Source: Fimbriimonadaceae bacterium (GTDB lineage Bacteria > Armatimonadota > Fimbriimonadia > Fimbriimonadales > Fimbriimonadaceae). Taken from it: a stretch of DNA of 61,565 nucleotides. The stretch lies in contig JADLBH010000030.1 in the NCBI GenBank assembly GCA_020847855.1, positions 1 through 61,565 on the forward strand, in the 5' to 3' direction. Positions 11,065 through 35,430 of the stretch are shown here, piece by piece. The translations under genes and the position numbers were made by a program. Each line of letters opens with the position of its first letter. Positions within the stretch are counted from its first letter, which is position 1. Under the pieces are notes generated by a model. The model was not told where the DNA came from. It worked only from the letters and a program-made list of their open reading frames with translations, and did not search any database.

Positions 11065-11110
11065 GGCTGTGGGACGACTGTGAGTATCCGTTCCGTCGCG
11101 CCCTCGCTCC

Positions 11111-11124
11111 ATGACCTGCGTCAT
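11111..11124 (-). promoter_or_regulatory. ATGAC-N4-GTCAT operator of tyrosine phenol-lyase
   Basis: A perfect palindrome, ATGAC-CTGC-GTCAT on the plus strand. On the minus strand a GATACT -10 hexamer (11083-11088) follows after 22 nt, giving a start near 11076, so the operator centre (11117.5) lies at -41.5. The same 14-mer in reverse orientation occurs before the NarH-like gene. Confidence 0.65.
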
Positions 11125-12640: not shown

Positions 12641-12677
12641 AGTCGGCCACCACATGGTCGAGCCCATAATCACGACG

Positions 12678-20407: not shown

Positions 20408-22843
20408 CTACGCCTTCCGGATATCCACCCTGGTGTCCTTCCAATGCTGCCCAGGGGCATAAACGGCAGGAAGATAGTAGTTCTCGTGGGTGGGCTTGAC
20501 CTTTTGGTGTGTGTGGACCGAGTGGTACTTACCCCCACCGAGGTAGCGATCCCACCAGCCATGGTCCACGCAGAGCACTCCGGGCTTGATCGTCTCGGTG
20601 ATCAGTGCCCACAGCTTGTAAGAGCCGTTGTTGTTGAAGATCTCCACCGGGTCGCCGTCTCGAATGCCCCTTCGGATGGCGTCAATGGGGTTGATCTCCA
20701 CCACGGCGCCTCGGTTCAGGTTGAGAAGCACGCGGTTGTTGGAGTGGGTCGAGTGGACGCGCCACTTGCTATGGGGGGTCACGATGCTCAGCGGCAGGGC
20801 TTGATCCTCGGGAGACAGGTGCGAGAACGCAGGCTTGAATACCGGGATCTCCTCCCCTAGGGCCTGGAATTCGGGCTCTTCCTTGTAAAACTCCATCCGA
20901 CCGGTCTTCAGGAACTCGCGCTGGGCCCCTTCGGGGAAAGGATAGGCTCGCGGCGGGAAGGGCTTGTCCTCGAGAAACTGCTCGTCACACCCGACCTCGG
21001 GGTCATGGACATTCAGGCGCACGGGTCCCTGGGTGAGCTGCTCATAGGTGATTCCGGCCACCTCTTTCCCCCCTCCTTGCAGGAGAATCTCGATGATCTG
21101 CTCCTCTGTGTAGTCCAGCTCCTTGGCAAGCTCGGGGTTGACCCGTTTCATGATCTCCTGAATCATCCAGAGCTCGGTGCGCGAATCGTATTGCGGAGGG
21201 ACCACCTCCTGCTGGATCTGAAGGTACGGGTGGCACGAGGTGCCCACGAGTTCCCGCTTCTCCCAGAACGTGGGCGCGGGAAGCACGACGTCGCTGTACT
21301 CGCAGGTGGGCGTCATCGAGAAGTCAATCGTGACGAAGAGCTCAAGGTTGTCAATCGAGCGCTTCAGGGGATCCGAGAACTCGGTGACAAGGGGGTTTCC
21401 GTGCGACACAAAGAGGGCCTTGAACCCACTCTTGGGATACTTGATCTTGGGATTGATGCTCTCCGTGGGCCCGCCCAGGACGAAGTAGTGCATCGGCACA
21501 CCGTTCGGCCGCTTGCCTCCAGGGAACCACCACGAGCTCACGTCGAGCCGGAAGTGGTGCTGGCCGGAGTAGATGGAAATGGACTCCCCTGGTTTGCCGT
21601 GGGCCCCGACCAGCGCGGAGAGGAGCAGGATCGAACGGATCGTCAAGTCCCCGTGAAGGCGGTGGTTCACACCCATCCCGATGATGATCGAGCTCGGGCG
21701 GTTGAGCGCATACTCCTTGGCGATCTCGCGGATGGTCGCAGCGGGGATGTCGGTCTGCGCCTCGACGTTCTCCGGCTTGTAAGTATCCCGCATGATCGAG
21801 TCTTCCAAGATCTGGAAGACTGGCGTGACCTTCACTCGTGCGCCGTGGATCTCGACTTCACGAGTGCCTTGGAACGCAGGGCGGACGCCCTCCCCGAGCG
21901 CGAGGGTCTCGGTGGGAAGCTTGTAGAGCGAGTCGGTGACCTCGTTCCAGACCATGAACTCCATGTCCGAGCCCATGCCCACGTCGGAAGCACGGAGCCT
22001 CTGACCGTTGTCGGCCCGGATGAGCGTGCCGCAGTCCGTGTACTTTCTGAGGAAGTCCCAGTCCACCCAGCCGTTCTCAAGGACCGTGTAGCACATAGAG
22101 AGCGCGAGGAGACCGTCCGTGCCAGGATGGATCGGGATCCAAAGGTCCGCGCCCTTGGCGGTCTGGCTGCACCTCGGGTCAATGGCGATGATCTTACAGT
22201 TGTTGCGCTGCTTCGCGACCTTCGTCAGGAACTGGGCATCAGGAATCCGGGTCTGGAAGACGTTGCTGGACCAAAGGATCGCGGTCTTCGCATGTCCCCA
22301 GCTCTTCGTCTCGCACTCGACGCAGTCAATCCCCATCGTGTGGGTGAACCCCATGGAGATGTCGCCGTTGAAGTCATAGGCGGTCGCCAAGGTCATGCCG
22401 AGCAAGGACGCCATCCGCACCTGGGCCCCCTTTTGGACGTACCCCGTCCCCACGACTTGGTTGAAGAGCAGCATGCTCTCCGGCCCGTGCCGCTCCATGA
22501 TCGAGACCATGCGCGAGGCGATATAGTCCAGGGCCTCGTCCCAGCTCGCTTCCTTCCACTTGCCCTCGCCTCGCTCCCCGACCCGGATCAGAGGAGTCTT
22601 GACCCGGTCAGGGCCATAGATCATGTGGGTCATGGACATGCCCCGTAGACACCCACGGGGGTTGTACTCCTCACACGGATAGTCCGCGGCGGGCTTGAGG
22701 TCAACGATCACGTCGTCCACGACGGTGGCGAGCCAGCCACAGGCACCGGTGCAGTTCGGACTGTCCGTCGTCCTCACCACGCGCGCCTCGCCTGGGAGTC
22801 GCTCCGACCCAAACCGTCCAGGTACCGTCATTCTTGTCGCCAT
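20408..22843 (-). CDS. molybdopterin oxidoreductase, NarG-like (probable nitrate reductase catalytic subunit)
   Basis: The 811-aa protein is a DMSO-reductase-family enzyme. The N-terminal cluster motif is D-x3-C-x3-C-x29-C (SPNCTGACGW, then NPRGCLRG). Asp takes the place of the His ligand seen in E. coli NarG. FNGDISMGF aligns with the NarG segment carrying the Asp ligand of molybdenum, so it belongs to the type II branch. It is about 400 residues shorter than NarG. There is no twin-arginine signal, so it should act in the cytoplasm. The NarH- and NarI-like partners lie 11 kb away and no NarJ chaperone is visible. Nitrate as substrate is inferred from NarK, NnrS and the shared operator. The ATG at 22843 follows GAGAAG. 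Confidence 0.8.
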   Translation of the reverse strand: MATRMTVPGRFGSERLPGEARVVRTTDSPNCTGACGWLATVVDDVIVDLKPAADYPCEEYNPRGCLRGMSMTHMIYGPDRVKTPLIRVGERGEGKWKEASWDEALDYIASRMVSIMERHGPESMLLFNQVVGTGYVQKGAQVRMASLLGMTLATAYDFNGDISMGFTHTMGIDCVECETKSWGHAKTAILWSSNVFQTRIPDAQFLTKVAKQRNNCKIIAIDPRCSQTAKGADLWIPIHPGTDGLLALSMCYTVLENGWVDWDFLRKYTDCGTLIRADNGQRLRASDVGMGSDMEFMVWNEVTDSLYKLPTETLALGEGVRPAFQGTREVEIHGARVKVTPVFQILEDSIMRDTYKPENVEAQTDIPAATIREIAKEYALNRPSSIIIGMGVNHRLHGDLTIRSILLLSALVGAHGKPGESISIYSGQHHFRLDVSSWWFPGGKRPNGVPMHYFVLGGPTESINPKIKYPKSGFKALFVSHGNPLVTEFSDPLKRSIDNLELFVTIDFSMTPTCEYSDVVLPAPTFWEKRELVGTSCHPYLQIQQEVVPPQYDSRTELWMIQEIMKRVNPELAKELDYTEEQIIEILLQGGGKEVAGITYEQLTQGPVRLNVHDPEVGCDEQFLEDKPFPPRAYPFPEGAQREFLKTGRMEFYKEEPEFQALGEEIPVFKPAFSHLSPEDQALPLSIVTPHSKWRVHSTHSNNRVLLNLNRGAVVEINPIDAIRRGIRDGDPVEIFNNNGSYKLWALITETIKPGVLCVDHGWWDRYLGGGKYHSVHTHQKVKPTHENYYLPAVYAPGQHWKDTRVDIRKA

Positions 22844-22899: not shown

Positions 22900-22913
22900 A
22901 TGATCTAGGTCAT
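22900..22913 (-). promoter_or_regulatory. nitrate-regulon operator of the NarG-like gene
   Basis: ATGAT-CTAG-GTCAT on the plus strand, one mismatch from the ATGAC-N4-GTCAT consensus. On the minus strand TACGAT (22872-22877) follows after 22 nt, predicting a start near 22865, which places the operator centre (22906.5) at -41.5. A 22-nt leader then precedes the ATG. Confidence 0.65.
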
Positions 22914-22925
22914 AGTAGGCCAAGC

Positions 22926-22939
22926 ATGACGACGGTCAT
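22926..22939 (+). promoter_or_regulatory. nitrate-regulon operator of the CRP/FNR gene (autoregulation)
   Basis: A perfect palindrome, ATGAC-GACG-GTCAT, centred 42.5 bp before the ATG at 22975 and 26 bp from the divergent operator. No good -10 hexamer is visible, so the promoter is less sure than the site itself. Confidence 0.6.
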
Positions 22940-22974: not shown

Positions 22975-23721
22975 ATGGGCATGCTCGATCCATCGGGCAT
23001 CATAGAAGCCGCAGTGAGCGCCATTCCGGAGCGTCCATCGGTTCAGTCCGTGATAGGTTCCTGCTCCATCCTAAACCCGCTGCACGAGGCTGAGCGGGAG
23101 AAGGTGATCGAAGGTTCTCAGATGGCGTTTGCAGAGAGGTCGGAAACGATCTGGCTCGCGGGCATGTCGAGCAAGTTCTTCGCGGTGCTGGGGAGCGGCT
23201 TCGTGAAGATGACGAGGAACGCTCCCCACGGGACCGAGATCGCGGTCGAGCTCTTGGGGCCGGGGCAGTGCTTTGGCCTGCTTGCCGCACTCGAGGGCCG
23301 CGACTTTCCCTTGAGCGCCACCGCGGTGACCCCCTGCTGGTACCTCAAGACGCCGTCGAGCGTGATCACCGAGGTCTATGCCACGAACGCCGACCTGCGC
23401 GACCAAATGCTCCGCACCCTAGGGCCAAGGCTTCGACGGGCACACGAGATGATGGCTCGGCTCAGTAGCGGCAAGGTCGAGCAACGAGTCGCCGCCGTCC
23501 TTCTCATCCTGGGCGAGTCCTACGGGCGGCTCGGCAAGCACGGTGGGGTCCGCCTCAACGTCCCGCTCACCAGGCAAGACATCGCCGAAATGGCGGGCAC
23601 GACCGTTGAGACGTGCATCCGGGTCATGAGCAAGTGGCAGAAGGCGGCGACCGTCACGACCGATCATCAAGTGATCACGATTCGAAAGCCCCATGTCCTG
23701 AACGAGACCCTTTCCGAATAG
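22975..23721 (+). CDS. CRP/FNR-family regulator, candidate controller of the nitrate regulon
   Basis: The 248-aa protein has a beta-roll sensor domain (ELLGPGQCFGLLAALEG near residues 92-108) and a winged-helix DNA-binding domain (LTRQDIAEMAGTTVETCIRVM). The recognition helix reads VETCIRVM. E. coli FNR has Glu-x2-Ser-Arg at these places, so Glu and Arg are kept but Ser is Ile. That fits a half-site keeping the FNR TGA core with altered flanks (ATGAC instead of TTGAT). The FNR four-cysteine N-terminal pattern is absent, so the signal may be NO or heme-linked; this is inference. It heads an operon with the CMD gene (2-nt gap) and mobA. Confidence 0.85.
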   Translation: MGMLDPSGIIEAAVSAIPERPSVQSVIGSCSILNPLHEAEREKVIEGSQMAFAERSETIWLAGMSSKFFAVLGSGFVKMTRNAPHGTEIAVELLGPGQCFGLLAALEGRDFPLSATAVTPCWYLKTPSSVITEVYATNADLRDQMLRTLGPRLRRAHEMMARLSSGKVEQRVAAVLLILGESYGRLGKHGGVRLNVPLTRQDIAEMAGTTVETCIRVMSKWQKAATVTTDHQVITIRKPHVLNETLSE

Positions 23722-24038: not shown

Positions 24039-24587
24039 TTGGAGGTCGAAGCCGTGATCCTGGGCGGGGGTTCGAGCCGACGCATGGGGCTGGACAAAGC
24101 TGCGATCCTCATGAACGGCGAGCCCATGATCGAACGCCTCGTTCGCCTGCTCGCCAGTGCAGGATACAGTTCAACCGTCCTCGGGCCGCAGGGCACCGCG
24201 GACCGTGAGCCCGGCTCTGGCCCTCTGCGCGCGCTCGCTGACTTCAGCCCGTCTGCTCCTTGGGTCTTCGTCTGTGCCTGTGATCTGCCTAGATTTGATC
24301 CTGTGGCTGTGGGGTACCTGAGGTCTCAAGCCGAGGGGTTCGACGCCGTGATCCCAACGAGGGGGGGGCGCCCTCAGCCCCTTGCCGCTCTATATTCTGC
24401 GCGGGCCTTTCAAGTTGCGAAGAGCCTAGATTCCAACGAGCGGCGAGTCATGGCCTGGGTCGAGCTCCTTCACACCAGGTTGGTCACGGAGGACGAAATG
24501 AAGGCGGAGGGCATCTCCCCCATTTCCCTGACGAGCGCGAATACGCCGGAGGAATGGCAACGACTCGTCGCGGGCGAGCCGGTATGA
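24039..24587 (+). CDS. mobA: molybdenum cofactor guanylyltransferase MobA
   Basis: The 182-aa product has the nucleotidyltransferase signature ILGGGSSRRMGLDKA near residues 7-21 and VCACDLPRFDP near residues 78-88, as in MobA. The enzyme joins GMP to molybdopterin to make the bis-MGD cofactor needed by DMSO-reductase-family enzymes such as the NarG-like protein here. The start appears to be the TTG at 24039, immediately after the TAA of the CMD gene; no ATG fits. The stop codon lies inside the operator that precedes moaA. Confidence 0.85.
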   Translation: MEVEAVILGGGSSRRMGLDKAAILMNGEPMIERLVRLLASAGYSSTVLGPQGTADREPGSGPLRALADFSPSAPWVFVCACDLPRFDPVAVGYLRSQAEGFDAVIPTRGGRPQPLAALYSARAFQVAKSLDSNERRVMAWVELLHTRLVTEDEMKAEGISPISLTSANTPEEWQRLVAGEPV

Positions 24588-24597
24588 CAAACCTCAT
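24584..24597 (+). promoter_or_regulatory. nitrate-regulon operator before moaA
   Basis: ATGAC-AAAC-CTCAT, one mismatch from the consensus, overlapping the mobA stop codon. Its centre is 42.5 bp before the moaA ATG. TAGGGT at 24620-24625 sits at -10 spacing and 7 nt before that ATG, so moaA may have a leaderless transcript of its own. Confidence 0.5.
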
Positions 24598-24632
24598 AGT
24601 CCCCTCGGTCTCGGAAGGGTAGGGTTATACCG

Positions 24633-25616
24633 ATGGAGTTGCTCACCGATTCCTTCGGGCGGGTACACAGCTACCTCCGGGTATCCGTGACCGACCGGTG
24701 CAACCTACGGTGCCGCTACTGCATGCCGCCCGAGGGCCTAGAATGGATCCCCAGATCGGAAGTCCTCAGCTTCGAAGAGATCGAGCGGCTCGTGAGGCTC
24801 TTTGTGGGCATCGGAATCGCAAAGATCCGGCTAACCGGGGGCGAGCCGACGGTTCGCAAAGGGATCGCCGACCTGATCTCTCGCCTCTCGGCCATCGCGG
24901 GCCCGGTGCCGCTTTGGATGACCACGAACGGAACCACGCTCGCGGAAAACGCAACAACCTACCGGAGGGCCGGGCTCACCGGGGTCAATGTCTCGTTGGA
25001 CTCGCTTCAGCGACAGCGGTATCGCGAGGTCACGATGCGCGACGAACTCGACCGCGTCCTCCTCGGGATAGATGCGGCGCTTGAAGCCGGGTTTGAGAGT
25101 GTCAAGATCAACGTGGTGGTCATGGCGGGGGTCAATGAGGAGGAAATCGTGGACTTTGTCGAACTGGCAAGGGACCGACCCCTCCACGTCCGATTCATCG
25201 AGTTCATGCCCTTTGCTGGTAATGGGTGGTCACAAGCCAAGTTGTTCCCCTATGCCGCGATGAGGGAGAGGATCGAAGGGCGGTTTCCCCTCCTCTCCCT
25301 GCCGGGTCGCGCTTCCGATGTGGGCAAGGACTTCACAGTCGAGGGCTTTGCGGGCAAGATCGGCTTCGTGACCTCGATGACTGAACACTTTTGTGACGGG
25401 TGCAACCGGCTCAGGCTCACTGCCGAGGGAGGGCTCAAGACGTGCCTCTTCTCGCGGGCCGAACGCGACCTGCGCGGACCCATGCGAGCGGGCTCCTCCG
25501 ACGAGGAACTCGCCGTGCTCATCCGTGACGAACTGATGCGCAAGTGGCGAGGGCACCCGCCCATGGACCGCCTTGCGCAAGTGCCGAACAAGAGCATGGT
25601 GGCGATCGGTGGCTAA
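24633..25616 (+). CDS. moaA: GTP 3',8-cyclase MoaA
   Basis: The 327-aa radical-SAM enzyme has the first cluster motif CNLRCRYC near residues 22-29. The second-cluster cysteines are at CDGCNRLRLTAEGGLKTCLF. It ends with the Gly-Gly tail that MoaA inserts into its active site. It catalyses the first step of molybdopterin synthesis, from GTP to 3',8-cyclo-GTP. It is followed by the moaC-moaB fusion with an 8-nt overlap and probably starts the Moco operon that runs to 30441. Confidence 0.95.
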   Translation: MELLTDSFGRVHSYLRVSVTDRCNLRCRYCMPPEGLEWIPRSEVLSFEEIERLVRLFVGIGIAKIRLTGGEPTVRKGIADLISRLSAIAGPVPLWMTTNGTTLAENATTYRRAGLTGVNVSLDSLQRQRYREVTMRDELDRVLLGIDAALEAGFESVKINVVVMAGVNEEEIVDFVELARDRPLHVRFIEFMPFAGNGWSQAKLFPYAAMRERIEGRFPLLSLPGRASDVGKDFTVEGFAGKIGFVTSMTEHFCDGCNRLRLTAEGGLKTCLFSRAERDLRGPMRAGSSDEELAVLIRDELMRKWRGHPPMDRLAQVPNKSMVAIGG

Positions 25617-26523
25617 GCTCGGCATGCGAGACGTCTCGCACAAGTCGTCCAGCCTCCGCGAGGCAAGTGCCACCGCGACTCTCTTGGTCTCACCCGCCAC
25701 GATCCGCTTGGTGAGAGATGGGGACTGTCCGAAGGGCGATCCGTTTCCGGTCGCCCGTGTGGCTGCGATTCAAGCCGCAAAAGCGACGGCCCAACTGATC
25801 CCCTATTGTCACCCCGTACCTGTGGATTGGGTGGAAATCGAGTTCGCCGTCCTGGAGGAGAGCATCGAGTGTACGGCGACGGTACGAGCCGTGTACCGAA
25901 CCGGTGTGGAGATGGAGGCCCTCACCGCCGCCTCGGTCGCCGCATTGAACCTCTTTGACTGCCTCAAGCCGGTGGACTCGGATATGGCGATCTCGTCGGT
26001 GAGGCTGCTGGGAAAGTCCGGCGGGAAATCGGACGCAGAGGGGAGCGGCAAGTTCTTGGCCACGGTCATCGTGGTCTCCGACTCGGTTGCGCGCGGAGAG
26101 TCTGAAGACGCTTCGGGTCGGCTGCTCGTAGAACGCCTCACTGGGCTCGGTGGGGAAGTGGCGGGGCCCAATGTCGTGCCGGACGAGATCGAGGAGATCC
26201 AGCAAGCCCTGCGGAGGATCGAGGGTGGAAGGCTCGTCCTTCTGACCGGTGGCACAGGGGCCGGGCCCCGAGACACGACGCCCGAGGCCGTCCTACCCTT
26301 GCTATCAAGACGCCTTCCCGGTGTGGAGCACAGGCTACATGCCTTTGGACAGGAGAGGTTCCCTTCCGCCATGTTGGGTCGCCCTACCGCCGGGATCATA
26401 GGCGAGAACATCGTGATCGCAATTCCCGGTTCCCCCTCGGCCGCGAGGGACGCGGTGGACGCACTGTTCCCGTATCTTCTCCATACGTTTCCAGTCATGA
26501 AGGGAGAGAAGCATGGTGGCTGA
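25609..26523 (+). CDS. MoaC-MoaB/MogA fusion protein
   Basis: The 304-aa product joins two Moco enzymes. Residues 1-150 are MoaC, cyclic pyranopterin monophosphate synthase, with DVSHKSSSLREA, IPYCHPVPVDW and GVEMEALTAASVAAL. Residues 160-304 are a MoaB/MogA-type molybdopterin adenylyltransferase domain with VVSDSVARGE and LLTGGTGAGPRDTTPEA. The fusion would couple the second step with adenylylation of molybdopterin. Start: the GTG at 25609 overlaps moaA by 8 nt; an ATG at 25624 gives an equally good MoaC start. The 3' end overlaps moeA by 11 nt. Confidence 0.9.
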   Translation: MAKLGMRDVSHKSSSLREASATATLLVSPATIRLVRDGDCPKGDPFPVARVAAIQAAKATAQLIPYCHPVPVDWVEIEFAVLEESIECTATVRAVYRTGVEMEALTAASVAALNLFDCLKPVDSDMAISSVRLLGKSGGKSDAEGSGKFLATVIVVSDSVARGESEDASGRLLVERLTGLGGEVAGPNVVPDEIEEIQQALRRIEGGRLVLLTGGTGAGPRDTTPEAVLPLLSRRLPGVEHRLHAFGQERFPSAMLGRPTAGIIGENIVIAIPGSPSAARDAVDALFPYLLHTFPVMKGEKHGG

Positions 26524-27724
26524 GAAGCGAGCTTTGGTGAGCCTCGAGGATGCGCTCGCGGCCGTGACCGAGGGCGTGGATCCTCTCGGCACCGAGGTCG
26601 TCAAGGTCCAAGACGTTGTAGGCCGGGCTCTTGTGGGTCCTCTCCGTGCGCCGATGGACTTGCCCCCGTTCGACAACTCTGCGGTGGATGGCTTCGCAAT
26701 TGCCGGGACGGACGTACAGACGGTCGCCTCTGACAGTTTTCGACTCGTGGGCGAGGCCAAGGCTGGGGATCGTGCCCGATTGTTGCATCCTGGCGAGACT
26801 CTGCGCATTTTCACGGGTGCGATGATCCCCAAAGGGTGCGATGCCGTAGTGATGCAGGAGGACGCCCGTGTGCAAGACGGAATCGTGACCTTCGGGGTGG
26901 GGGCGCGCACCGGCGAAAACATCCGGCGGGCGGGTACTGAGGCCAAAGCGGGAGCACAACTCCCGTCCGGGCTTCAGGCAAACCCTGCGACCCTCGCGAT
27001 GCTCGCGAGCGCGAGCTTCGAACAGGTCGAGGTCCGAAAGAAGCCGGTCGTGGCAATCGTGGCCACCGGCGACGAGCTTGTGGCGCCGGGCTCGACGCTG
27101 GCCCCCGGCCAGATCTACGAGTCCAACGCCCCTGCGCTCGCCGTGGCCGCCTGCGCGATGGGCTGCGAGGTCGCTTCGGTTCGTTCGGTCGCGGACGATC
27201 GAGACGCGATCTCCAGGGCTTGCTCCGACGCGCTGGAGTCGTGCGATGTGCTCGTGACGAGCGGCGGGGTCTCGGTAGGTGCCCATGACCTTGTCCGCCC
27301 GGTCTTGCGCGAGTTGGGCGTGGAGGAGCGCTTCGCCGGGGTAGCGATCAAGCCGGGGAAACCGGTAGTGTTCGGTAAGCGTGGCACGTGCTCCGTGTTC
27401 GGACTGCCAGGGAATCCCATGTCCGCGCTCGTTGGTTTCGCCGTGCTCGTTCGACCTCACCTCCTGGCCCGTCTCGGGGTCTGGCAAGGATTCATCGAGG
27501 TCTCGGGACGGTTGTTGCATCCGTTGACCAAGAAGGCAGGGCGCGTGGAGCTCGTCCCGGCGAACTTTCGCGATGGAGTTTTCGATGCCTTCGTAGATCG
27601 AGCTTCCTACAAGCCCAGTCTGCTCGCTGCGGCGAACGTTCTCGTATGGCTTCCCGCGGAAGGGCAGGTTTTTGAAGAGGGTACAGAGATGCGAGCGTTG
27701 GTGCTGGATTGGGGGCCGTCGTGA
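26513..27724 (+). CDS. moeA: molybdopterin molybdenumtransferase MoeA
   Basis: The 403-aa protein has MoeA landmarks: PPFDNSAVDGFAI near residues 55-67, RIFTGAMIPKGCDAVVMQE near residues 100-118, VATGDEL near residue 183, TSGGVSVGAHD near residue 251 and FGLPGNPMS near residue 300. It inserts molybdate into adenylylated molybdopterin. The ATG at 26513 overlaps the moaC-moaB end by 11 nt, and its stop overlaps the moaD GTG by 4 nt, so translation of the three genes is coupled. Confidence 0.93.
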   Translation: MVAEKRALVSLEDALAAVTEGVDPLGTEVVKVQDVVGRALVGPLRAPMDLPPFDNSAVDGFAIAGTDVQTVASDSFRLVGEAKAGDRARLLHPGETLRIFTGAMIPKGCDAVVMQEDARVQDGIVTFGVGARTGENIRRAGTEAKAGAQLPSGLQANPATLAMLASASFEQVEVRKKPVVAIVATGDELVAPGSTLAPGQIYESNAPALAVAACAMGCEVASVRSVADDRDAISRACSDALESCDVLVTSGGVSVGAHDLVRPVLRELGVEERFAGVAIKPGKPVVFGKRGTCSVFGLPGNPMSALVGFAVLVRPHLLARLGVWQGFIEVSGRLLHPLTKKAGRVELVPANFRDGVFDAFVDRASYKPSLLAAANVLVWLPAEGQVFEEGTEMRALVLDWGPS

Positions 27725-27966
27725 GGAGAACGGTCCGGGTCGAGTTTTGCGCGAGTCTGAGAGACCAGGCCGGCCGAGCGGTGACACAGCTCGAAACCGA
27801 GGCGACGACGTGTGGCGACCTGTACCGTGAATTGCAGGAGCGGTATGCCTTCACCCTCCCGGAAAGCCTTGTCAAGTTCGGTCTCGGCAACGAAATCTGC
27901 GGGGGGGAGTCGGTGCTCGAAGGGCACGACGTTGTTGTGTTGATCCCTCCCGTTTGCGGCGGTTAG
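27721..27966 (+). CDS. moaD: molybdopterin synthase small subunit MoaD
   Basis: The 81-aa ubiquitin-like protein ends in VCGG; the terminal Gly-Gly is the carrier for the thiocarboxylate. The N-terminal strand VRVEFCASLRDQAG and the end HDVVVLIPPVCGG are typical MoaD features. It donates sulfur to cyclic pyranopterin monophosphate within molybdopterin synthase. The GTG at 27721 overlaps the moeA stop (GTGA). The next gene encodes its partner MoaE and its activating MoeB-type domain in one protein. Confidence 0.9.
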   Translation: MRRTVRVEFCASLRDQAGRAVTQLETEATTCGDLYRELQERYAFTLPESLVKFGLGNEICGGESVLEGHDVVVLIPPVCGG

Positions 27967-27967
27967 G

Positions 27968-29413
27968 ATGTTTCAAATCACGGCGGATCCGATTGTTCCG
28001 GTGGAGGTGGGCGGCTCCTCGGCGGGCGGGATCGTCGTTTTTGAGGGCAAGGTTCGAGACTCGAACCAGGGCAAAAGGGTGACACTGCTCGAGTACGAGT
28101 GCCACACGCCCCTTGCAGAGGCAGAGGGGGGGAGAGTCCTCGAGGAGGCTGTTCGAGACTTTGGCCTCGAGGGCGCCCGAGTGGTCCACCGTGTCGGGAT
28201 CCTTGAGATCGGCGAAACCGCGGTGTGGGTCGGCGTCGCCGGTCGGCACCGTGGGGAGGCGTTTCGCGCATGCGCTCACATCATGGACCAGATCAAGGCG
28301 AGGGTTCCCATCTGGAAGCGCGAGCACTACGACGATGGAACCTCGGAGTGGCTTGGGTGCCACAGCGACGCCGCTGAGCCTGACGGCGAGTATCACTCCC
28401 GGCATCGGAGCCTTCCCGAGATCGGTGTGGACGGTCTCCGGCGCCTCTCCGAAACTCGTGTGCTCGTGGTCGGGACTGGTGGCTTGGGTTGTGCAGCCTT
28501 GCCATATCTGGCAGGGGCCGGCTTCGGATTCATTGGGATCGCCGATGGCGACACCGTCCAGTCGAGTAACCTGCACCGACAGCCGCTCTTTGGCATGGAG
28601 GACGTCGGCAAGGGCAAGGCGACCCTCGCTCGGTTGGCCCTTTCGCGCCTGAATCCTACCGTTCGTGTGACCGCCTTGCCGCACCTTGACGCCAGGAACA
28701 TCGAGGCGATTCTCGAGGATTTCGACATCGTCTTAGACGGTAGCGACAACTTCACGATCAAGTTCCTTCTCAACGATATGGCGAGAAAGCTCGGCAAGCC
28801 GCTCGTCACTGCGAGCGTACACCGCTTCGAAGGCATGATCCTCACGGTCTTGCCCGACCCAGCTTCGAGCTGCCTTCGGTGCCTCTGGGAAGTGCCCCCG
28901 GTGGACGGGTGTGTCGGCAATTGCTCGGAGGAGGGGGTACTCGGTGCCTTGCCCGGCGTCTTCGGGGCTCTCCAAGCCGCCGAAGTGATCCAAGTCGCCT
29001 TGAACGGTAAAGGCGCCCTCAGCACGAGCATGATGATCCTCGACCTGCGCGATATGAGGCAGCGTTTGCTCTCTCGCAGTGTGAGCCCTTCTTGCCCCCT
29101 CTGTAGCGGGGCACCCAGCCGAGAGGGCGTTCACATGAGACTGGGTGACGCCCTCGCCCAAGGAATGACCGTTCTGGACATTCGTGAGCGGGCGGAGAGG
29201 GAAGCCGATTCCGGCGTGAAAGGCTCGGTGCACGTGCCCATGAGCGACCCGCAAAGCTTGCTGGCGGAGGCGGGACGGCTTCCGGGCCCATTCCTGCTGG
29301 TTTGTGCCCATGGAGTTCGATCCACGCAGGCCGCATATTGGCTGCGAGAGATGGGATTTGCCGCCTATTCGATGCCAGGCGGGACGGAAGCCCTCAGGGA
29401 GCAAACGAAATGA
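27968..29413 (+). CDS. MoaE-MoeB-rhodanese triple fusion
   Basis: The 481-aa product has three parts. Residues 1-135 are MoaE, the large molybdopterin synthase subunit (GIVVFEGKVRD, YECHTPLAE, PIWKREHY). Residues 140-385 are a ThiF/MoeB E1-like domain (VVGTGGLGCAALPYLAGAG, QSSNLHRQ, zinc pairs CLRC and CPLC, cysteine in GNCSEEGVLG) that would adenylylate MoaD. Residues 390-481 are a rhodanese domain with active-site cysteine in LVCAHGVRS, for sulfur transfer. One chain would activate, sulfurate and use MoaD. It starts 1 nt after moaD and overlaps the dehydrogenase gene by 4 nt (ATGA). Confidence 0.9.
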   Translation: MFQITADPIVPVEVGGSSAGGIVVFEGKVRDSNQGKRVTLLEYECHTPLAEAEGGRVLEEAVRDFGLEGARVVHRVGILEIGETAVWVGVAGRHRGEAFRACAHIMDQIKARVPIWKREHYDDGTSEWLGCHSDAAEPDGEYHSRHRSLPEIGVDGLRRLSETRVLVVGTGGLGCAALPYLAGAGFGFIGIADGDTVQSSNLHRQPLFGMEDVGKGKATLARLALSRLNPTVRVTALPHLDARNIEAILEDFDIVLDGSDNFTIKFLLNDMARKLGKPLVTASVHRFEGMILTVLPDPASSCLRCLWEVPPVDGCVGNCSEEGVLGALPGVFGALQAAEVIQVALNGKGALSTSMMILDLRDMRQRLLSRSVSPSCPLCSGAPSREGVHMRLGDALAQGMTVLDIRERAEREADSGVKGSVHVPMSDPQSLLAEAGRLPGPFLLVCAHGVRSTQAAYWLREMGFAAYSMPGGTEALREQTK

Positions 29414-30441
29414 ACGCACCCCAAGCCAAGCCGAGTACCAACGGGCTTTCCACCAGGGAAGCCATCTTCGTCACCGAAGGCGACGGTCTCCTAGCCAAGA
29501 TGCTTGCCACAAGATTCGGGGCGGACGCAGTTCGTGTCTTTCCCGGCACCCTCGATTCTCAGGAAGAAGAGATCGAGTCCGTTCGGGCTATCGCGATCAC
29601 GGTGAGGTCACAGACCGGGGCCGCGGATATGGATCGGTTTCCCTCGCTCGAAGTCATCACCACCGGATCGGCAGGCTACGACCACATTGACCTTGCGGCA
29701 GCGCAGGAGCGCGGGATTAAGGTCTGCAACGTGCCCGACTACGGGCCCGCGGTGGCCGAGTTCAACATGGCACTTTTGCTCGCACTCAGCCGCAAGCTCC
29801 ATCGCGCCTATCTCCAGACGCGAGATCACGACTTCGACCCGCTTGAGCTGCTGGGCCATAACCTCACAGGGCGGACCCTGGGCGTGATTGGAACCGGAAA
29901 CATCGGTGCCAAGCTCGCCCAATTGGCATCGGCGTTCGGAATGCGCGTGGTCGCCACCGATCCTAGTCCTCGCGCTGAAGTGCCAGCGGAGTACATAGCC
30001 ATGGACGACCTGCTGCGGCAGGCGGACATGATCTCCCTTTGCTGCCCCTTGACGGACAAGACGAGGCACATGATCGGCTTCGAGGAGTTCAAGGCGATGA
30101 AGCCGGGTGTCCTGATGGTGAACACTTCGCGAGGGGCGGTGGTGGACACGCAAGCACTGTTGTGGGCCTTGGGAGAGGATATCGTCGCGGCGGTCGCCCT
30201 GGACGTCCTCGAAGGCGAGACCCTGATCCTGCCTGGGGAATGGAGCGACACCTTGATCCATGACCCGACACAACGCGAGGCGTTGGAAATCGCCGAGGGG
30301 CTCACGCTCACCTGCCATCCCAAGGTCTTGGTGACCCCGCACATCGCGTATTACACCGCGGACTCGCTGCAGGCGATCCGCGAAGTCACGGTCGAGAACG
30401 TCGCCGCGTATGCCGCGGGTGCTCCCCAGAACCTTTGCTAG
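29410..30441 (+). CDS. D-isomer-specific 2-hydroxyacid dehydrogenase
   Basis: The 343-aa protein has the NAD-binding motif GVIGTGNIGAKLAQ near residues 157-170, the catalytic Arg in NTSRGAVVD near residue 240, and the catalytic His in VTPHIAYYT near residue 311. GSAGYDHIDL near residue 80 is also typical. Members reduce pyruvate to D-lactate or act on similar 2-keto acids. It is the last gene of the Moco operon, overlapping the fusion gene by 4 nt, although its chemistry has no obvious place in Moco synthesis. Its stop overlaps the nnrS stop as CTAG. Confidence 0.85.
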   Translation: MNAPQAKPSTNGLSTREAIFVTEGDGLLAKMLATRFGADAVRVFPGTLDSQEEEIESVRAIAITVRSQTGAADMDRFPSLEVITTGSAGYDHIDLAAAQERGIKVCNVPDYGPAVAEFNMALLLALSRKLHRAYLQTRDHDFDPLELLGHNLTGRTLGVIGTGNIGAKLAQLASAFGMRVVATDPSPRAEVPAEYIAMDDLLRQADMISLCCPLTDKTRHMIGFEEFKAMKPGVLMVNTSRGAVVDTQALLWALGEDIVAAVALDVLEGETLILPGEWSDTLIHDPTQREALEIAEGLTLTCHPKVLVTPHIAYYTADSLQAIREVTVENVAAYAAGAPQNLC

Positions 30442-31799
30442 CAGGTTGCCGCCACACGCACCGACCGCGGCAGGAGAAGCCGGACCATGACGGAGGCCCA
30501 ACACACGAGCCCGACGAGCTCGATGAACCCGGTCGCCCCCATGGGCGCGAAGGCGGCAGGGAAGTAGTCGGTCGCTACCTCCAAACCTACCCGTCCAAGG
30601 TTCCCGAGATTGAGCAGCCACCACGCGGCCCAAAGCGCCTTCGTACCAATCTCCGCGGAGCCGGTCATCCGAGTCGCGACGTGGTAACCCACTCCGAGGA
30701 TCATCTGCGAGATGAACCCCACGGTCAAAGCGTGGCGGATCGCTCCAGTGTAAGCATGGGAGAAGGGCTCGCCGATCACGGACAAGTGTAGTCGCTCGAA
30801 GCTCGCCAAGGACGCGGCCACCAGCAGCCACACGAACCCTGCCTTCAAGAACTTCTGGCTCGCGTTGGGACGCAAGACGGGCTCGAGCACGCCCAGGGAG
30901 ACGATCATGCAGACCGCGCCAAGGCCCAAGAAGGCGGCCCCCAGGCGGAAGACGGTGTCCGACCCCGGTGTAAGACCCGCGTTGAAGTACGCGATCCAGC
31001 CCGTCATGCGGAGTGCAAGGCCAAGAATCCACGCCCCATAACCCAGGAGGCCCCAAGTGCGCTTCGCTTCCCGAAAGCCCAAGCAGCCGGGGAACTTGCT
31101 CGCGGCGACGCCGAAGACCATGGTCGCAACAAAGCCAAGGAACTGGGCCTCGCGGAGAGGAGTGGCCCATCTCGCCACAAACGCTATCGAGGCGGACGTG
31201 TCTGCCTGGTGCGTACCGACGAACACAAACGGGTCCGCAAGAGCAACGACGGCCCAGAAGAGCAACGATGTCGTAACGAAGAGGAGGGGCCAACCCGACG
31301 AAGGCCGGGACGGGTCGCGGTTCTTCGCGATATTGAGGACCATGGTGCCGATCGCGGCGATCTGCAATGTGCTCGACGCGACCCCGAGCCAAACCCATCG
31401 AGAAGGATCCGCTTGGGCCAGCGGTTCCGCTGCAAACCTCAGAACAATGCCGCCTGCCATCAGCCAGAGGCACCAGTTTGCCAGCCTCGTGAGGCTCGGC
31501 AGGCTCCTCGCCGAGGCACCGTGCTGCTGCAGGGTAAACCCCATCACGAAGAATCCGACCCAACCGTAGAGCTGTGAGTTCGCGTGTGCGAGCACGTACG
31601 GGGTCCACGCGGTCGCCGTGTACGAGCCTTGCCGGGCGATTCCGTGCAAGGCGAGCGCACCGAGCAAGCAACCCACAGTCAGGAGCGTTGCGATGCCCGC
31701 GAGGAAGAAGGGTCGAAAAACGGCCACGGGAACCTTGCCGGGCTCTGACCTCTCCGATGCTAGCCGCAGCATTGTGAGCCCAGTTCGGCCCGTGACCAT
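30438..31799 (-). CDS. nnrS: NnrS-family membrane protein
   Basis: 453 aa with about 12 membrane segments. FRPFFLAGIATLL near residue 28, HANSQLYGWVGFFVMGF near residue 69, and histidines such as SHAYTGAIRHALTVGF fit NnrS, a heme- and copper-containing membrane protein of denitrifiers that protects against NO stress. The ATG at 31799 is exactly 41.5 bp from the centre of the upstream operator, so it probably has a leaderless transcript of its own besides read-through from the cytochrome b gene 60 bp upstream. An internal ATG at 31772 is a weaker alternative start. Confidence 0.85.
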   Translation of the reverse strand: MVTGRTGLTMLRLASERSEPGKVPVAVFRPFFLAGIATLLTVGCLLGALALHGIARQGSYTATAWTPYVLAHANSQLYGWVGFFVMGFTLQQHGASARSLPSLTRLANWCLWLMAGGIVLRFAAEPLAQADPSRWVWLGVASSTLQIAAIGTMVLNIAKNRDPSRPSSGWPLLFVTTSLLFWAVVALADPFVFVGTHQADTSASIAFVARWATPLREAQFLGFVATMVFGVAASKFPGCLGFREAKRTWGLLGYGAWILGLALRMTGWIAYFNAGLTPGSDTVFRLGAAFLGLGAVCMIVSLGVLEPVLRPNASQKFLKAGFVWLLVAASLASFERLHLSVIGEPFSHAYTGAIRHALTVGFISQMILGVGYHVATRMTGSAEIGTKALWAAWWLLNLGNLGRVGLEVATDYFPAAFAPMGATGFIELVGLVCWASVMVRLLLPRSVRVAATC

Positions 31800-31833
31800 A
31801 GTTTCAATTTGGAGACGTCCGCGGGCCGGAACC

Positions 31834-31847
31834 ATGACGGCCGTCAT
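31834..31847 (-). promoter_or_regulatory. ATGAC-N4-GTCAT operator of nnrS
   Basis: The site ATGAC-GGCC-GTCAT is a complete 14-bp palindrome, including its centre. It fills the 59-bp gap between the cytochrome b stop and the nnrS start, centred 41.5 bp before the nnrS ATG. A weak CAAATT lies at -10 spacing. Confidence 0.65.
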
Positions 31848-31858
31848 ACCGTGGGACC

Positions 31859-33055
31859 TTACTCCACAGCGGGAGCGCCGCCTTCTTGGGCAGGGGCCGA
31901 ATGGTGCGAGCTTGGTGGGGTTTCGAGGATCCCCTTGAGAGTCATGAGCCCGATCAGGAGGATGACTCCCATTCCGACGAGCATGACCCAGCCCCGCTTT
32001 GCCGGGTGCCTCGACTTCGATCGGTCGAGCCAAGGAAGGGCGAACATCCCCACCGTGATCAGACCTGGGATCACCAGGGTGGCAAGGGCCTCGTAGCCGG
32101 GAGGCATGATCTTCAAGAGCTCGTAGAGCCCGAGGAAGTACCACTCGGGCCGTGGGGTGAAGTCCGTGCCTGCCGGATCGGCCATCGCCTCCAGTCCGGG
32201 CGGCAGGTTGAGCGTGAGCCAGAACAAAGCGGCAAGTCCCGCCACCACAACGACCGCGTCCTTGAAGAGCTGGTTCGGGAAGAAGGGCTGGGGCTTGCCC
32301 TTCTGGGGCATCACCGGGCCCGCGATGTGATGGCGCCGCACCAGGTACAGGTGGAGGCCGACGAGCCCCATGAGCGCCGCGGGGAGGAGCATGACATGAA
32401 CCGCATAGAACCGGGTGAGCGTCAGTGCGCCCACCTCCTCTCCCCCACGGACCAGGATCAGCAGCTCGTGCCCGATGAACGGAACGGTGGCCGCGATGCG
32501 GGTTCCTACGACGGTGGCCCAGTACGCCTTCTGGTCCCATGGAAGCAGGTACCCGGTGAAGGAGAACCCGAGCATCACTTGGAAGATGAGCACGCCACAG
32601 ACCCAAGTGAGTTCACGGGGCTTCTTATAGGAGCCCCAGAAGAAGACCCGTAGGGTGTGCATCACCATCACGACGACAATGAGCGCGGAGCCCCAAACGT
32701 GCAATCCCCGGATGATCGCGCCCGCGGCGACTTCCGTCGTCAGGTGCTTCACCGAGTTGTACGCCGTCTGCGGGGCTGGGCTGTAGTACATCGCCATGAG
32801 GACCCCGGTCGTGAACTGGAACGCAAGGAGCGTGAGGAGGAGGTTTCCGAGGGTTTGCCACCACCCGACTCCGGGTGGCATCGGCTCGTCAAGGTTCTTC
32901 CGGACGAAACCCCACCAGCCGAGACGAAGCTCCATCCAGTCGCGAAGCCCCGGACGCTCCATGGCGAGTCGCTCCTCGGGCTGAAGATCGCCGGGGGCGG
33001 TGACGATGGGACGTTCTTCGGTTTCGAACGAGTGAGGCTCGGGTTCCTTGATCAT
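31859..33055 (-). CDS. cytochrome b of a bc-type complex (fused b and subunit-IV parts)
   Basis: The 398-aa membrane protein has both halves of a bc/b6f cytochrome b. Heme-ligand histidines occur in IIRGLHVWGS and VVMVMHTLR, and the second pair in FYAVHVMLLP and LVGLHLYLVRRHH. The quinol-site motif appears as PEWYFLGLYELLK (PEWY). The last 80 residues add three further helices. The first 60 residues are a cytoplasmic extension. It would move electrons from menaquinol to the Rieske protein encoded 4 nt upstream. No cytochrome c1 gene follows; the cytochrome c in this operon is fused to a NarI-like protein. The ATG at 33055 is chosen because it starts the conserved region. Confidence 0.88.
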   Translation of the reverse strand: MIKEPEPHSFETEERPIVTAPGDLQPEERLAMERPGLRDWMELRLGWWGFVRKNLDEPMPPGVGWWQTLGNLLLTLLAFQFTTGVLMAMYYSPAPQTAYNSVKHLTTEVAAGAIIRGLHVWGSALIVVVMVMHTLRVFFWGSYKKPRELTWVCGVLIFQVMLGFSFTGYLLPWDQKAYWATVVGTRIAATVPFIGHELLILVRGGEEVGALTLTRFYAVHVMLLPAALMGLVGLHLYLVRRHHIAGPVMPQKGKPQPFFPNQLFKDAVVVVAGLAALFWLTLNLPPGLEAMADPAGTDFTPRPEWYFLGLYELLKIMPPGYEALATLVIPGLITVGMFALPWLDRSKSRHPAKRGWVMLVGMGVILLIGLMTLKGILETPPSSHHSAPAQEGGAPAVE

Positions 33056-33059
33056 TCGC

Positions 33060-33563
33060 TTACACCTTGCGGCCGATAAGGATTCGGCCACGCTCGATCT
33101 TTACGGGGTGTTGGACAAGGCCGGTGGGTGGAGGGCCGGAGACGACCTTGCCCTCCTTGTCGAAGACCCCACCGTGGCACGGGCAGAAATAGCGCTGCTG
33201 ATCACCTTGGAATGTGATCCGACACCCTAGGTGGGTGCAGGCTGGGTCGAAGCACTTGACCCCGTTCGGGGTTCGGTGCAGGTAGACGGTGTACTTCCGC
33301 TCTACAGTCTGGTAGCCGTCCACGATGGGGATGACATAGCTCACCTCGCGCGTCTCCCCTTCTGCGAGCTGATCGTCGCCAAGCACGTCCACCCACTTGA
33401 GCTTCGACCGCCGCGAGAGCGGAGACAGCACGAAGCGCACGGCCGGCGCCGCCAAAGACGCCAGGACGCCCAGGTTGAGCACCATGACGATCGCCCCGAG
33501 CGTGGACCTTCTGCTCGGGCCGTTCTGTTGCTTCTTCTCGGATTGGTTCTGGAGTTCAGGCAT
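33060..33563 (-). CDS. Rieske iron-sulfur protein
   Basis: The 167-aa protein has both cluster motifs: CTHLGC near residue 109 and CPCHGGVFD near residue 127, each giving one Cys and one His to the [2Fe-2S] centre. A twin-arginine-like start (SRRSTLG, residues 18-24) followed by a hydrophobic helix suggests Tat export and membrane anchoring. It is encoded between the cytochrome c-NarI fusion and cytochrome b genes, so it belongs to a quinol-oxidising complex feeding nitrate reduction. Confidence 0.9.
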   Translation of the reverse strand: MPELQNQSEKKQQNGPSRRSTLGAIVMVLNLGVLASLAAPAVRFVLSPLSRRSKLKWVDVLGDDQLAEGETREVSYVIPIVDGYQTVERKYTVYLHRTPNGVKCFDPACTHLGCRITFQGDQQRYFCPCHGGVFDKEGKVVSGPPPTGLVQHPVKIERGRILIGRKV

Positions 33564-33574
33564 CGTTGGGTTCT

Positions 33575-34693
33575 CTAGGGGTAGTAACGAAGTTTCACGT
33601 CGTCGGCTTGATCGGGTGCAACCCGCCGAATGACGTCCAAGGCGATTCGCTCCGACTTGTGGTGCCGGCCCGGCGCGGGCTCGCGTACGAACCCGATGTC
33701 AATCCCACTCGCGGTCACGGCATCGGTCACGCGGTTGAGCCCGACCATGATGGGGACGATCCATGCATGCTGGAACCTCGTGAAGGGGGCCGAAACGAAG
33801 AGTGCGCACACGCAGAGCAAGTGATAGATGTAGATCGGCATGACCCACCCGAAGGCGGTCGTCCGATTGATGACCAGGGTCAAGATTCCGCTCAACACCG
33901 TATGGAAGAGGAGCGTCACAAAGAGATAGTCGCGGCCCAGGGTCAGGCCGTTGTCAATGTAGTCGTCGGTCTTGTACCGAACCATCACGTACGCGACCCC
34001 CACGAGGACCGCAATGCCGGAAACGATCGGGAGGATTTTGAGTGGGTCGCTGAGCGCAAGGTCGGCGCGGGTCGGGTTATAAATCTGGATCAGCACGTCG
34101 GCAAGGGCCAGGCCGATCATCCCGTAGAGCATCAGGGCGTGCATGAACCATCGGTGCTTGTTGGACTTCCACAGGCTCGCGACCAATAGCCCGTCCACGA
34201 TCAGCGACCGCACGAAAACGCCGAACGCCTTGAAGCGACCGAACCTGCGCAAGGCAGGCCGCATGTACTTGAAACCTGCCAAGCCCACCCAGTAGTTGAT
34301 TCCTCGAACGATGAAAATGGCGCTCAAGAGCGAGGCGCCTAGGAAGATCAGGGCGACGTTCTTGGTGCTCAGCAGCCCCCCCACGCGGAAGGCGACCGGG
34401 ATCTCGTCCGGTTTCCACTGCTTGGCATTGAGCTCACGATAGAGCTCGTCCACGTCTTTGTCGCTGAGTTGGCTCGCGGGGGTGGCGGGCATCATGCCTT
34501 TGCCGTTCCGCACGACCTTGACGAACGCCTCGCGCTCGATCTTCGGCCTCACGATCGGCGGTCCCAGTCCCCCCATGGCGGACATCCCGTGGCAACCCAT
34601 GCAGGAACTGGTCCCGTATACGTCGCGGGTGGGGGACTCGGCGTGGGCGAGCCCAGGCACTAGCAGGAGCAAGGCAAGTGCCAGATTTCTCAC
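33575..34693 (-). CDS. cytochrome c fused to a NarI-like membrane cytochrome b
   Basis: The 372-aa protein has a signal peptide (residues 1-18), then a monoheme cytochrome c domain with SSCMGCHGM near residues 29-37 and a likely axial Met in KGMMPA. From about residue 105 there are five or six membrane helices with histidines in HRWFMHALMLYG and LLFHTVLSG, resembling NarI/DsrM-type gamma subunits. This could carry electrons between the bc complex and the NarH-like protein. The start overlaps the NarH-like stop by 4 nt (ATGA). I have not seen this exact fusion described; membrane topology is inferred. Confidence 0.75.
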   Translation of the reverse strand: MRNLALALLLLVPGLAHAESPTRDVYGTSSCMGCHGMSAMGGLGPPIVRPKIEREAFVKVVRNGKGMMPATPASQLSDKDVDELYRELNAKQWKPDEIPVAFRVGGLLSTKNVALIFLGASLLSAIFIVRGINYWVGLAGFKYMRPALRRFGRFKAFGVFVRSLIVDGLLVASLWKSNKHRWFMHALMLYGMIGLALADVLIQIYNPTRADLALSDPLKILPIVSGIAVLVGVAYVMVRYKTDDYIDNGLTLGRDYLFVTLLFHTVLSGILTLVINRTTAFGWVMPIYIYHLLCVCALFVSAPFTRFQHAWIVPIMVGLNRVTDAVTASGIDIGFVREPAPGRHHKSERIALDVIRRVAPDQADDVKLRYYP

Positions 34694-35379
34694 AGCGAGA
34701 CCTCCGTGACTTCGGGCGATGCGGCGTGACCTAGGGTCGAGACGTCTTGGGCGGCAAGCGTCCCAAGGTACTGGCCGCTGGGCTCGGTGCCTGCCTCAGG
34801 CAAGAGCTTGAAGGGAGTGCGGCCTGTCTCTCGCTCCTCCGAGGCGATGTACTGTCGAAGTAGCCCCCCCTCGTCGTCAAGATCGCCGAAGATGCGGGCG
34901 TTGGTCGGGCATGCGACGACGCACGCCGGGTCGAGACCCTCGTCCACACGGTGGGCGCAGTACGTACACTTTCGGGCGACGCCGCTCGTCAAGCGAGGCT
35001 TGACATAGTCCTTCTCGTAGGCCTCGTCCTCGTTGAGGTACCAGTCCTCCGAGGGTTGCAAGATGATATTGCCGTAGGGGCACGCGGAGACGCACGCACC
35101 GGTACCCCTACAGCGATCTTGATCAATGAGAACGATCCCGTCCTGACGCTTGACGATCGCCTTGTTCGGGCACGCCTTGAGGCAGGGGGGGTTCTCGCAA
35201 TGGTTACAGAGGACGGGGATGTAAATCCTTTTGACGTCAGGATAGCGACCGGCCTCCACGTTCAAGACGCGCGCAAAGAAGACGTCCATCGGCGTCCCGT
35301 TCTCCTGCTTGCACGCCACTGTGCATGCGTCGCAGCCGATGCACCGTGTGAGGTCTATGAGCATGGACAGCCGCGCCAT
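34690..35379 (-). CDS. NarH-like iron-sulfur electron-transfer subunit
   Basis: The 229-aa ferredoxin-like protein has four cluster motifs: RCIGCDACTVAC, CNHCENPPCLKAC, CRGTGACVSACP and KCTYC with a distant CVVACP. In the third, Thr replaces the second Cys. E. coli NarH has Trp there and binds a [3Fe-4S] cluster, so one [3Fe-4S] and three [4Fe-4S] clusters are predicted. It should connect the NarI-like protein to the NarG-like catalytic subunit. It is less than half the length of NarH and nearer DmsB or PsrB in size. The ATG at 35379 is 44.5 bp from the operator centre, nearly leaderless. Confidence 0.85.
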   Translation of the reverse strand: MARLSMLIDLTRCIGCDACTVACKQENGTPMDVFFARVLNVEAGRYPDVKRIYIPVLCNHCENPPCLKACPNKAIVKRQDGIVLIDQDRCRGTGACVSACPYGNIILQPSEDWYLNEDEAYEKDYVKPRLTSGVARKCTYCAHRVDEGLDPACVVACPTNARIFGDLDDEGGLLRQYIASEERETGRTPFKLLPEAGTEPSGQYLGTLAAQDVSTLGHAASPEVTEVSL

Positions 35380-35416: not shown

Positions 35417-35430
35417 ATGACGCAGGTCAT
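35417..35430 (-). promoter_or_regulatory. ATGAC-N4-GTCAT operator of the narH-like operon
   Basis: A perfect palindrome, ATGAC-GCAG-GTCAT, whose reverse complement equals the tyrosine phenol-lyase operator. GAGAAT (35388-35393, minus strand) follows at -10 spacing. The transcript should start near 35381 and cover the NarH-like, cytochrome c-NarI, Rieske and cytochrome b genes. Confidence 0.65.

Follow-up and report, generated by a model that had tools for sequence, protein, structure and literature searches.

A Rieske/cytochrome b complex without its own cytochrome c1 is likely to feed a nitrate reductase through a cytochrome c-NarI fusion in Armatimonadota

In the textbook scheme of nitrate respiration, the bc complex is bypassed and the Q-cycle is forgone. 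Here we describe a set of genes in a 61,565-nucleotide stretch of DNA (hereinafter, the window) from a Fimbriimonadaceae bacterium of the phylum Armatimonadota (contig JADLBH010000030.1 of GenBank assembly GCA_020847855.1), in which a Rieske protein, a cytochrome b, a NarH-like iron–sulfur (Fe-S) protein (FeS) and a fusion of cytochrome c with a NarI-like membrane protein (c-NarI) are encoded together and appear to serve a NarG-like molybdoenzyme. The system closest in working principle is Nar1 of Streptomyces, likewise a cytoplasmic nitrate reductase proposed to be fed from a bc-type complex. For Nar1 of Streptomyces coelicolor and the bcc-aa3 supercomplex, transfer of electrons from the bc-type complex via a c heme to the heme b of NarI has been proposed, with the Q-cycle kept, and the energetics has been argued from potentials of -75 mV for menaquinol and +430 mV for nitrate (PMC7931247). 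In Streptomyces, however, the enzyme is an ordinary NarGHI and the complexes are encoded apart, whereas in Armatimonadota the genes form one operon and the c heme resides within the NarI-like subunit.

The haloarchaeal nar cluster, where NarB (Rieske protein), NarC (cytochrome b), a PcrA-like NarG and NarH are encoded together (PMC8301774), resembles the Armatimonadota locus in the clustering of the Rieske protein and cytochrome b with a PcrA-like catalytic subunit, but haloarchaeal NarG is exported by the twin-arginine translocation (Tat) pathway, there is no NarI or c-NarI, and an EbdC-like gamma subunit and a TorD chaperone are present. The original prediction, made from the DNA sequence alone, had noted the haloarchaeal Rieske and cytochrome b genes and held that the c-NarI wiring would be different, and this distinction stands, the NarG-like protein having no Tat signal. 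Because the haloarchaeal cytochrome b is remote from the nar-linked one of Armatimonadota (only 27-29% identity, with a distant position in the tree), the association with nar probably arose separately in the two groups, to judge from these sequences; descent of the Rieske/cytochrome b pair from the haloarchaeal nar cluster was considered and dismissed on account of this low identity and the long branch. In Thermus, the periplasmic cytochrome c NarC works with NarI of the cytoplasmic nitrate reductase NarCGHI (PMC7694296), but this diheme cytochrome is a protein in its own right, for which an outward role has been proposed; in addition, Thermus has NarJ, and NarCGHI operates under repression of complex III. 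In Campylobacter jejuni, Nap and Tor are coupled to Qcr (PMC6195509), so that the Q-cycle is linked to nitrate reduction, but the reductases are periplasmic there, in place of a cytoplasmic enzyme that has a NarI-like subunit. In Methanoperedens, the Rieske/cytochrome b genes and nar are found in separate clusters. Compared with NarGHI itself, the system of the window has the five-helix NarI-like membrane subunit, but the catalytic subunit does not reach a narG-family score and no NarJ/TorD chaperone was found in the genome.

We consider it likely that the genes in the window encode one respiratory system, in which a Rieske/cytochrome b complex without its own c1 feeds a nitrate reductase via the c heme on the NarI-like subunit. 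Menaquinol would be oxidized at the Qo site of the Rieske/cytochrome b complex; one electron would leave by way of the Rieske cluster, arrive at the outward-facing c domain of c-NarI, recross the membrane through the heme(s) b of the NarI/QmoC-like domain and continue along the NarH-like protein, with its four Fe-S clusters, to the molybdenum of the NarG-like subunit in the cytoplasm, where nitrate would be reduced to nitrite, and the second electron would enter the Q-cycle. The inward-moving electrons, on meeting cytoplasmic protons, would contribute two charges beyond the two gained in the Q-cycle, for an expected ~4 charges per 2 electrons compared with 2 for quinol-oxidizing NarGHI; if this is true, nitrate respiration in these bacteria would yield roughly double the energy that is usual for it. 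The analysis directly supports the gene content, the cofactor motifs, the predicted membrane sides, the exact co-occurrence, the lack of a second bc complex or a c1 gene, the shared operator and the finding that nar-linked cytochrome b is without the c domain of its relatives, and we infer the substrate, the type of quinone, the direction of electron flow and the physical supercomplex. Towards the fullest version of the proposal, a hard-wired menaquinol:nitrate supercomplex with the c1-equivalent heme moved to the reductase, no diffusible carrier, ~4 charges per nitrate and an origin independent of haloarchaea, we lean only slightly. The bc-linked route, for which co-purification from spores of Streptomyces had given the cue and which is still debated there, would have a stripped-down natural version here, with a single operon and a single c heme, borne by the subunit that joins the complexes; in close relatives, a heme of this kind is on cytochrome b. 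No published description of this arrangement was found in the literature searched, which left out most subscription journals, and the arrangement is likely to be new, as a variant of bc-coupled nitrate respiration.

The genes for FeS, c-NarI, the Rieske protein and cytochrome b are tightly packed: the first two overlap (GTGA), c-NarI is separated from the Rieske gene by 11 bp and the Rieske stop codon from the likely start of cytochrome b by 4 bp, and therefore the four genes form a single transcription unit. Pfam and NCBIfam bear out the identities of these four proteins and of NnrS, encoded next to them (30438-35379, five minus-strand genes). The original prediction of one operon under a nitrate operator accordingly holds for the genes from FeS to cytochrome b, given their spacing and the operator at 35417, but not for nnrS, which is set apart from cytochrome b by ~86 bp with an operator of its own and probably has its own promoter. 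The predicted wiring to the NarG-like protein is supported, with the correction that the narG-like gene lies, in this genome, 12 kb off in a unit of its own (20408-22843). Among the genuine genes of the 29-36 kb region, the sole CxxCH motif is in c-NarI, and therefore a cytochrome c1 gene is absent there; the surmise that the only c-type heme is that on the NarI-like fusion is thus borne out.

For the rest of the genome, searches were made one protein family at a time, with the profiles of the absent families giving positive results in several of 14 control genomes. Apart from the copy in this operon, the genome contains no bc-type cytochrome b that could be found and no NarGHI, so that a separate complete set of bc1 and NarGHI elsewhere in this genome, which the original prediction had named as the finding to look for against it, did not turn up. 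The NarJ/TorD chaperone (PF02613) was not found in the genome either, compared with 5 of the 14 control genomes; chlorite dismutase (PF06778) was found neither in the genome nor in the sampled neighborhoods of relatives; and the genome searches identified neither NirK nor a further oxidoreductase of the COX1/Nor type. The single COX1 gene is part of a cluster that also encodes SCO, CoxB and all of alternative complex III (identified from open reading frames), and so the aerobic chain needs no bc complex. The NarG search matched just one other molybdoenzyme, of the Nas type and encoded on contig 34, where a cluster (L071 5249-9903) encodes an Fe-S protein, a membrane-anchored Rieske protein, a QmoC-like membrane protein and the Nas-type catalytic subunit (825 bits with the NasC model). 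No cytochrome b was found in this cluster; similar Rieske/Fe-S pairs adjoin the nar operons of several relatives.

The Rieske/cytochrome b pair has the features of a complex of the bc/b6f kind in its cofactor sites: the ligand residues of the Rieske protein are invariant in 17 relatives, its CPCHGG motif lacks the potential-raising Ser, as we presume to be the case in menaquinol types, and cytochrome b retains two His pairs and PEWY, as in bc/b6f complexes. The standalone Rieske/cytochrome b-c complexes of Armatimonadota have cytochromes b of this very family, with identities of up to 59%, but carry the c heme on cytochrome b or on the product of an adjoining gene, whereas in the nar-linked complexes it is on c-NarI. 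Of 15 cytochromes b that were sampled in the phylum and do not belong to this operon, 13 continue at their C-terminal end into a c-type cytochrome, and a CxxCH gene adjoins each of the two others; by contrast, the nar-linked cytochromes b are ~400 amino acids long and contain CxxCH in none of 37 cases (36 with readable open reading frames and that of the window), whereas every c-NarI bears a c-type heme. In a maximum-likelihood tree, the nar-linked cytochromes b form one group (90/77; 100/99 including the sister), with the second cytochrome b of genome G102, which is 59% identical and has a fused cytochrome c, as the sister; this genome possesses a standalone, c-fused Rieske/cytochrome b pair (L113 4832-6842) besides a nar-linked copy without c. 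Therefore, the c heme has effectively switched partner: the bc complex of the nar operon lost the c heme of its relatives, and the membrane subunit of the reductase bears one instead. The c domains of c-NarI and of the c-fused cytochromes b share only a short stretch around CxxCH, which fits both a move of the same domain and recruitment of another. As the operon contains no other c heme, without c-NarI the bc complex would lack an electron acceptor in its own operon.

The joining subunit, c-NarI, consists of a signal peptide, a monoheme c domain (CMGCH, MMP), a five-helix membrane domain and a conserved basic C-terminal tail; in five relatives (L042, L052, L054, L060 and L069), one c-NarI frame contains two tandem cytochrome c domains. 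Pfam recognizes Cytochrome_CBB3 (45.8 bits) and Nitrate_red_gam (23.9 bits against a cut-off of 22.9), the top NCBIfam model is QmoC, and the sequence match of the QmoC-like domain to solved structures is weak (NarI, E-value 0.05-0.1). The AlphaFold2 model (mean predicted local distance difference test score, 79) comprises a cytochrome c domain and a membrane helix bundle, and its top Foldseek match is Escherichia coli NarI (E-value 0.01, probability 1.00), with class I cytochromes c matching residues 22-94 in the fold comparison. In a second structural comparison, NarI gave Z 11.5 (root mean square deviation 5.0 over 181 residues) and Mycobacterium smegmatis EtfD gave Z 12.5; Z-scores below 13 for helical bundles are no proof alone and such chains do not decide between the QmoC and NarI types, but NarI is well above the unrelated rows, in line with the Pfam match. 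Counterparts of H187 and H205 of NarI are conserved, and helix 2 of c-NarI has one invariant His (H185) rather than the two of NarI. By contrast, H66 and K86, which we take to be part of the quinol site of NarI, have no counterpart in the sequence alignment, which fits c-NarI no longer being a quinol oxidase. Because the N-terminal c domain follows a signal peptide and the NarG-like protein has no Tat signal, the c heme is predicted to be outside and the catalytic site inside. The FeS subunit contains 15 invariant Cys (alignment A6, 17 relatives): three motifs are of the four-Cys type, and the third motif has only three Cys (C-x5-C-x3-C), a pattern shared with those beta subunits of type II enzymes that hold a [3Fe-4S] cluster. 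The component labels of the original prediction thus required refinement, the wiring being retained: the membrane part is QmoC/NarI-like with three of the four heme His, and the catalytic subunit is nearer to PcrA.

Given the NarI fold, c-NarI might itself oxidize menaquinol, with its c domain sending spare electrons to periplasmic acceptors and the Rieske/cytochrome b complex being a separate quinol oxidase that shares the operon; Thermus NarC, which belongs to a NarGHI enzyme as its cytochrome c subunit and for which such a branching role has been put forward (PMC7694296), would be a precedent. We deem this unlikely because it leaves the bc complex without an acceptor, its c domain having been lost and no other c heme being encoded in the operon, and because neither NirK nor a second COX1/Nor-type oxidoreductase was found in the genome; the missing counterparts of H66 and K86 point in the same direction.

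The NarG-like subunit (~811 amino acids) lacks a signal peptide or Tat signal in all relatives. Its best match among solved structures is the perchlorate reductase subunit PcrA, aligned over nearly the whole length with 441 bits, compared with 270 bits for E. coli NarG, which aligns piecewise only (28%); against the narG family model TIGR01580, it scores 257.5 bits, below the cut-off of 1084. The Asp ligand of molybdenum, D161 in a GD motif, is conserved and aligned with both PcrA and NarG. The fourth ligand of the Fe-S cluster FS0, however, is His in NarG, PcrA, ClrA and haloarchaeal NarG but Asp in the NarG-like proteins, which have DxxxCxxxC (Asp27) instead of HxxxCxxxC in every full-length member of alignment A1, and the gate residues of PcrA, F164 and W461, are replaced by Ala and His. 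The combination of PcrA as the nearest match, Asp at FS0 and a different gate sets these proteins apart, on sequence grounds, as a separate clade within the type II dimethyl sulfoxide (DMSO) reductase enzymes, so that the system adds to the NarG-like enzymes a clade with Asp at the FS0 ligand position and no recognized chaperone. Nitrate is the presumed substrate in view of the context, namely NarK, NnrS, the regulator, the operator and the molybdenum cofactor genes.

The similarity to PcrA raises the question of another oxyanion, (per)chlorate, selenate or arsenate, being reduced with the same wiring, all the more as the nearest plasmid relative (32% identical) adjoins chlorite dismutase. This appears improbable because chlorite dismutase was found in neither the genome nor the sampled neighborhoods, the gate differs from that of PcrA, and NarK is under the common operator; perchlorate reduction in particular was rejected despite PcrA being the top PDB match, given that no chlorite dismutase was found and the gate residues differ. 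Less probable still is reverse operation as a nitrite oxidase, whereby electrons from nitrite would flow from the NarG-like subunit through the Fe-S protein and c-NarI outward and a reversed bc complex would make quinol. The nitrite oxidoreductase of Nitrobacter, whose origin lies in a cluster like that of Thermus, in which NarI-like and c-type subunits are encoded (PMC7694296), lends this scheme some appeal, but NxrA is remote in the PDB search (165 bits versus 441 for PcrA), and NarK, NnrS, the Crp/Fnr-type regulator and the operator make up the setting of a nitrate respirer.

The separation of the narG-like gene from its partners is bridged by regulation. The operator, an inverted repeat ATGACN4GTCAT, is present at 35417, 31834, 22926, 12627 (ahead of the NarK-type transporter) and 11111; of the 7 exact copies in the 2.53-Mb genome, these 5 fall in the 61.6-kb window, which is 2.4% of the genome (~0.17 by chance). 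The operator is common to the narG-like and FeS units, and therefore the narG-like gene is tied to its partners despite the 12-kb distance. Among 30 related loci, 19 have an operator with at most one mismatch in the 250 bp ahead of narG, against ~1.2 expected from the overall density in these loci. Of 34 relatives, 15 encode a homologue of the Crp/Fnr-type regulator, a candidate binder of the operator, in the vicinity of the operon, and 16 encode a homologue of the NarK-type transporter there.

The genes make up a conserved system. Full-length c-NarI and NarG-like proteins are encoded in the identical 37 of 291 genomes, and close cytochrome b orthologues (63-80%) are present in 36 of these 37, the copy in the window included (all but G057). 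In 33 of the 37, the five genes for NarG, FeS, c-NarI, Rieske and cytochrome b follow one another directly on the same strand, in the order given; the exceptions are G124 and G129, both with contig breaks, the genome of the window, where the set is split, and G057. The proposed check of co-occurrence in other genomes therefore comes out in favor of the association, and orthologous operons with a different catalytic subunit were not encountered, the same NarG-like protein accompanying the operon in 37 of 37. The distribution is patchy within families, and although kinship partly explains the identical sets, gain or loss as a unit is the simplest reading. In G184 (L070 9788-11611), the Rieske and cytochrome b genes and a 52-residue C-terminal remnant of c-NarI are kept, and NarG, FeS and the rest of c-NarI are lost. 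Pattern matches in named genomes come from Armatimonadota (Fimbriimonadales, Chthonomonadia and HRbin16) except for L081, labelled Methanoregulaceae (SJ84), and L096, labelled Acidobacteria (SZAS-17), which are close relatives and reflect either transfer or mis-binned contigs. A plasmid search with c-NarI gave no match, and a search of IMG/VR with the c-NarI alignment gave 27 pattern stretches, none of which was confirmed.

Several observations weigh against this interpretation. The NarG-like subunit is nearer to PcrA than to NarG, and its active-site gate is unlike both; NarK or NnrS is present in only 18 of the 34 neighborhoods; c-NarI has counterparts for just three of the four heme-ligating His of NarI, so that an unbroken transmembrane heme path is not assured; and G057 (64% complete) has NarG-FeS-c-NarI without Rieske and cytochrome b adjoining. 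The 1116-amino acid frame of G057 that spans the last part of NarG, FeS and c-NarI (L068 7219-10569) was not used as a fusion, narG being frameshifted and the contig coverage being 2.5, perhaps an assembly error; a SLAC1 gene follows it.

Table 1. Genes and operator sites of the putative nitrate reductase system in the window
Feature	Position	Strand	Size	Evidence or remarks
NarH-like Fe-S subunit (FeS)	34690..35379	-	229 amino acids	alignment A6, profile matches
Cytochrome c-NarI/QmoC-like fusion (c-NarI)	33575..34693	-	372 amino acids	Pfam, NCBIfam, AlphaFold2 model, Foldseek
Rieske [2Fe-2S] protein	33060..33563	-		CTHLGC and CPCHGG motifs, twin-Arg start
b6-type cytochrome b	31859 to ~33055	-	~398 amino acids	His pairs 131/145 and 232/247; PEWY; without c-type heme domain
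nnrS, adjoining unit	30438 to ~31772	-		Pfam NnrS; own operator at 31834
Catalytic NarG-like molybdoenzyme	20408..22843	-	811 amino acids	type II DMSO reductase family
Crp/Fnr-type regulator	22975..23721	+		divergent from NarG-like; Pfam HTH_Crp_2, cNMP_binding
NarK-type nitrate/nitrite transporter	12654..14162	+		TIGR00886; operator at 12627
Molybdenum cofactor genes	24039..29413	+		MobA, MoaA, MoaC-MoaB fusion, MoeA, MoaD, MoaE-ThiF-rhodanese fusion
Operator ATGACGCAGGTCAT	35417..35430			38 bp ahead of FeS, fronting the FeS-c-NarI-Rieske-cytochrome b unit
Operator ATGACGACGGTCAT	22926..22939			between NarG-like and Crp/Fnr-type regulator
Second operator site, one mismatch	22900-22913			NarG-like/regulator intergenic region
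Operator ATGACGGCCGTCAT	31834..31847			ahead of nnrS

Among the molybdenum cofactor genes, the MoaC-MoaB fusion occupies positions 25573-26523 and the MoaE-ThiF-rhodanese fusion positions 27968-29413. For a tyrosine phenol-lyase-like gene (9682-11124; TIGR02618, above the cut-off), the annotated start and the operator at 11111-11124 overlap, and the real start is probably farther downstream. The two exact operator sites outside the window are at L073 ~9806 and G000:C37:406074; of these two, the one on contig C1 is located where a sensor histidine kinase-like gene ends, ahead of a LuxR-type response regulator-like gene.

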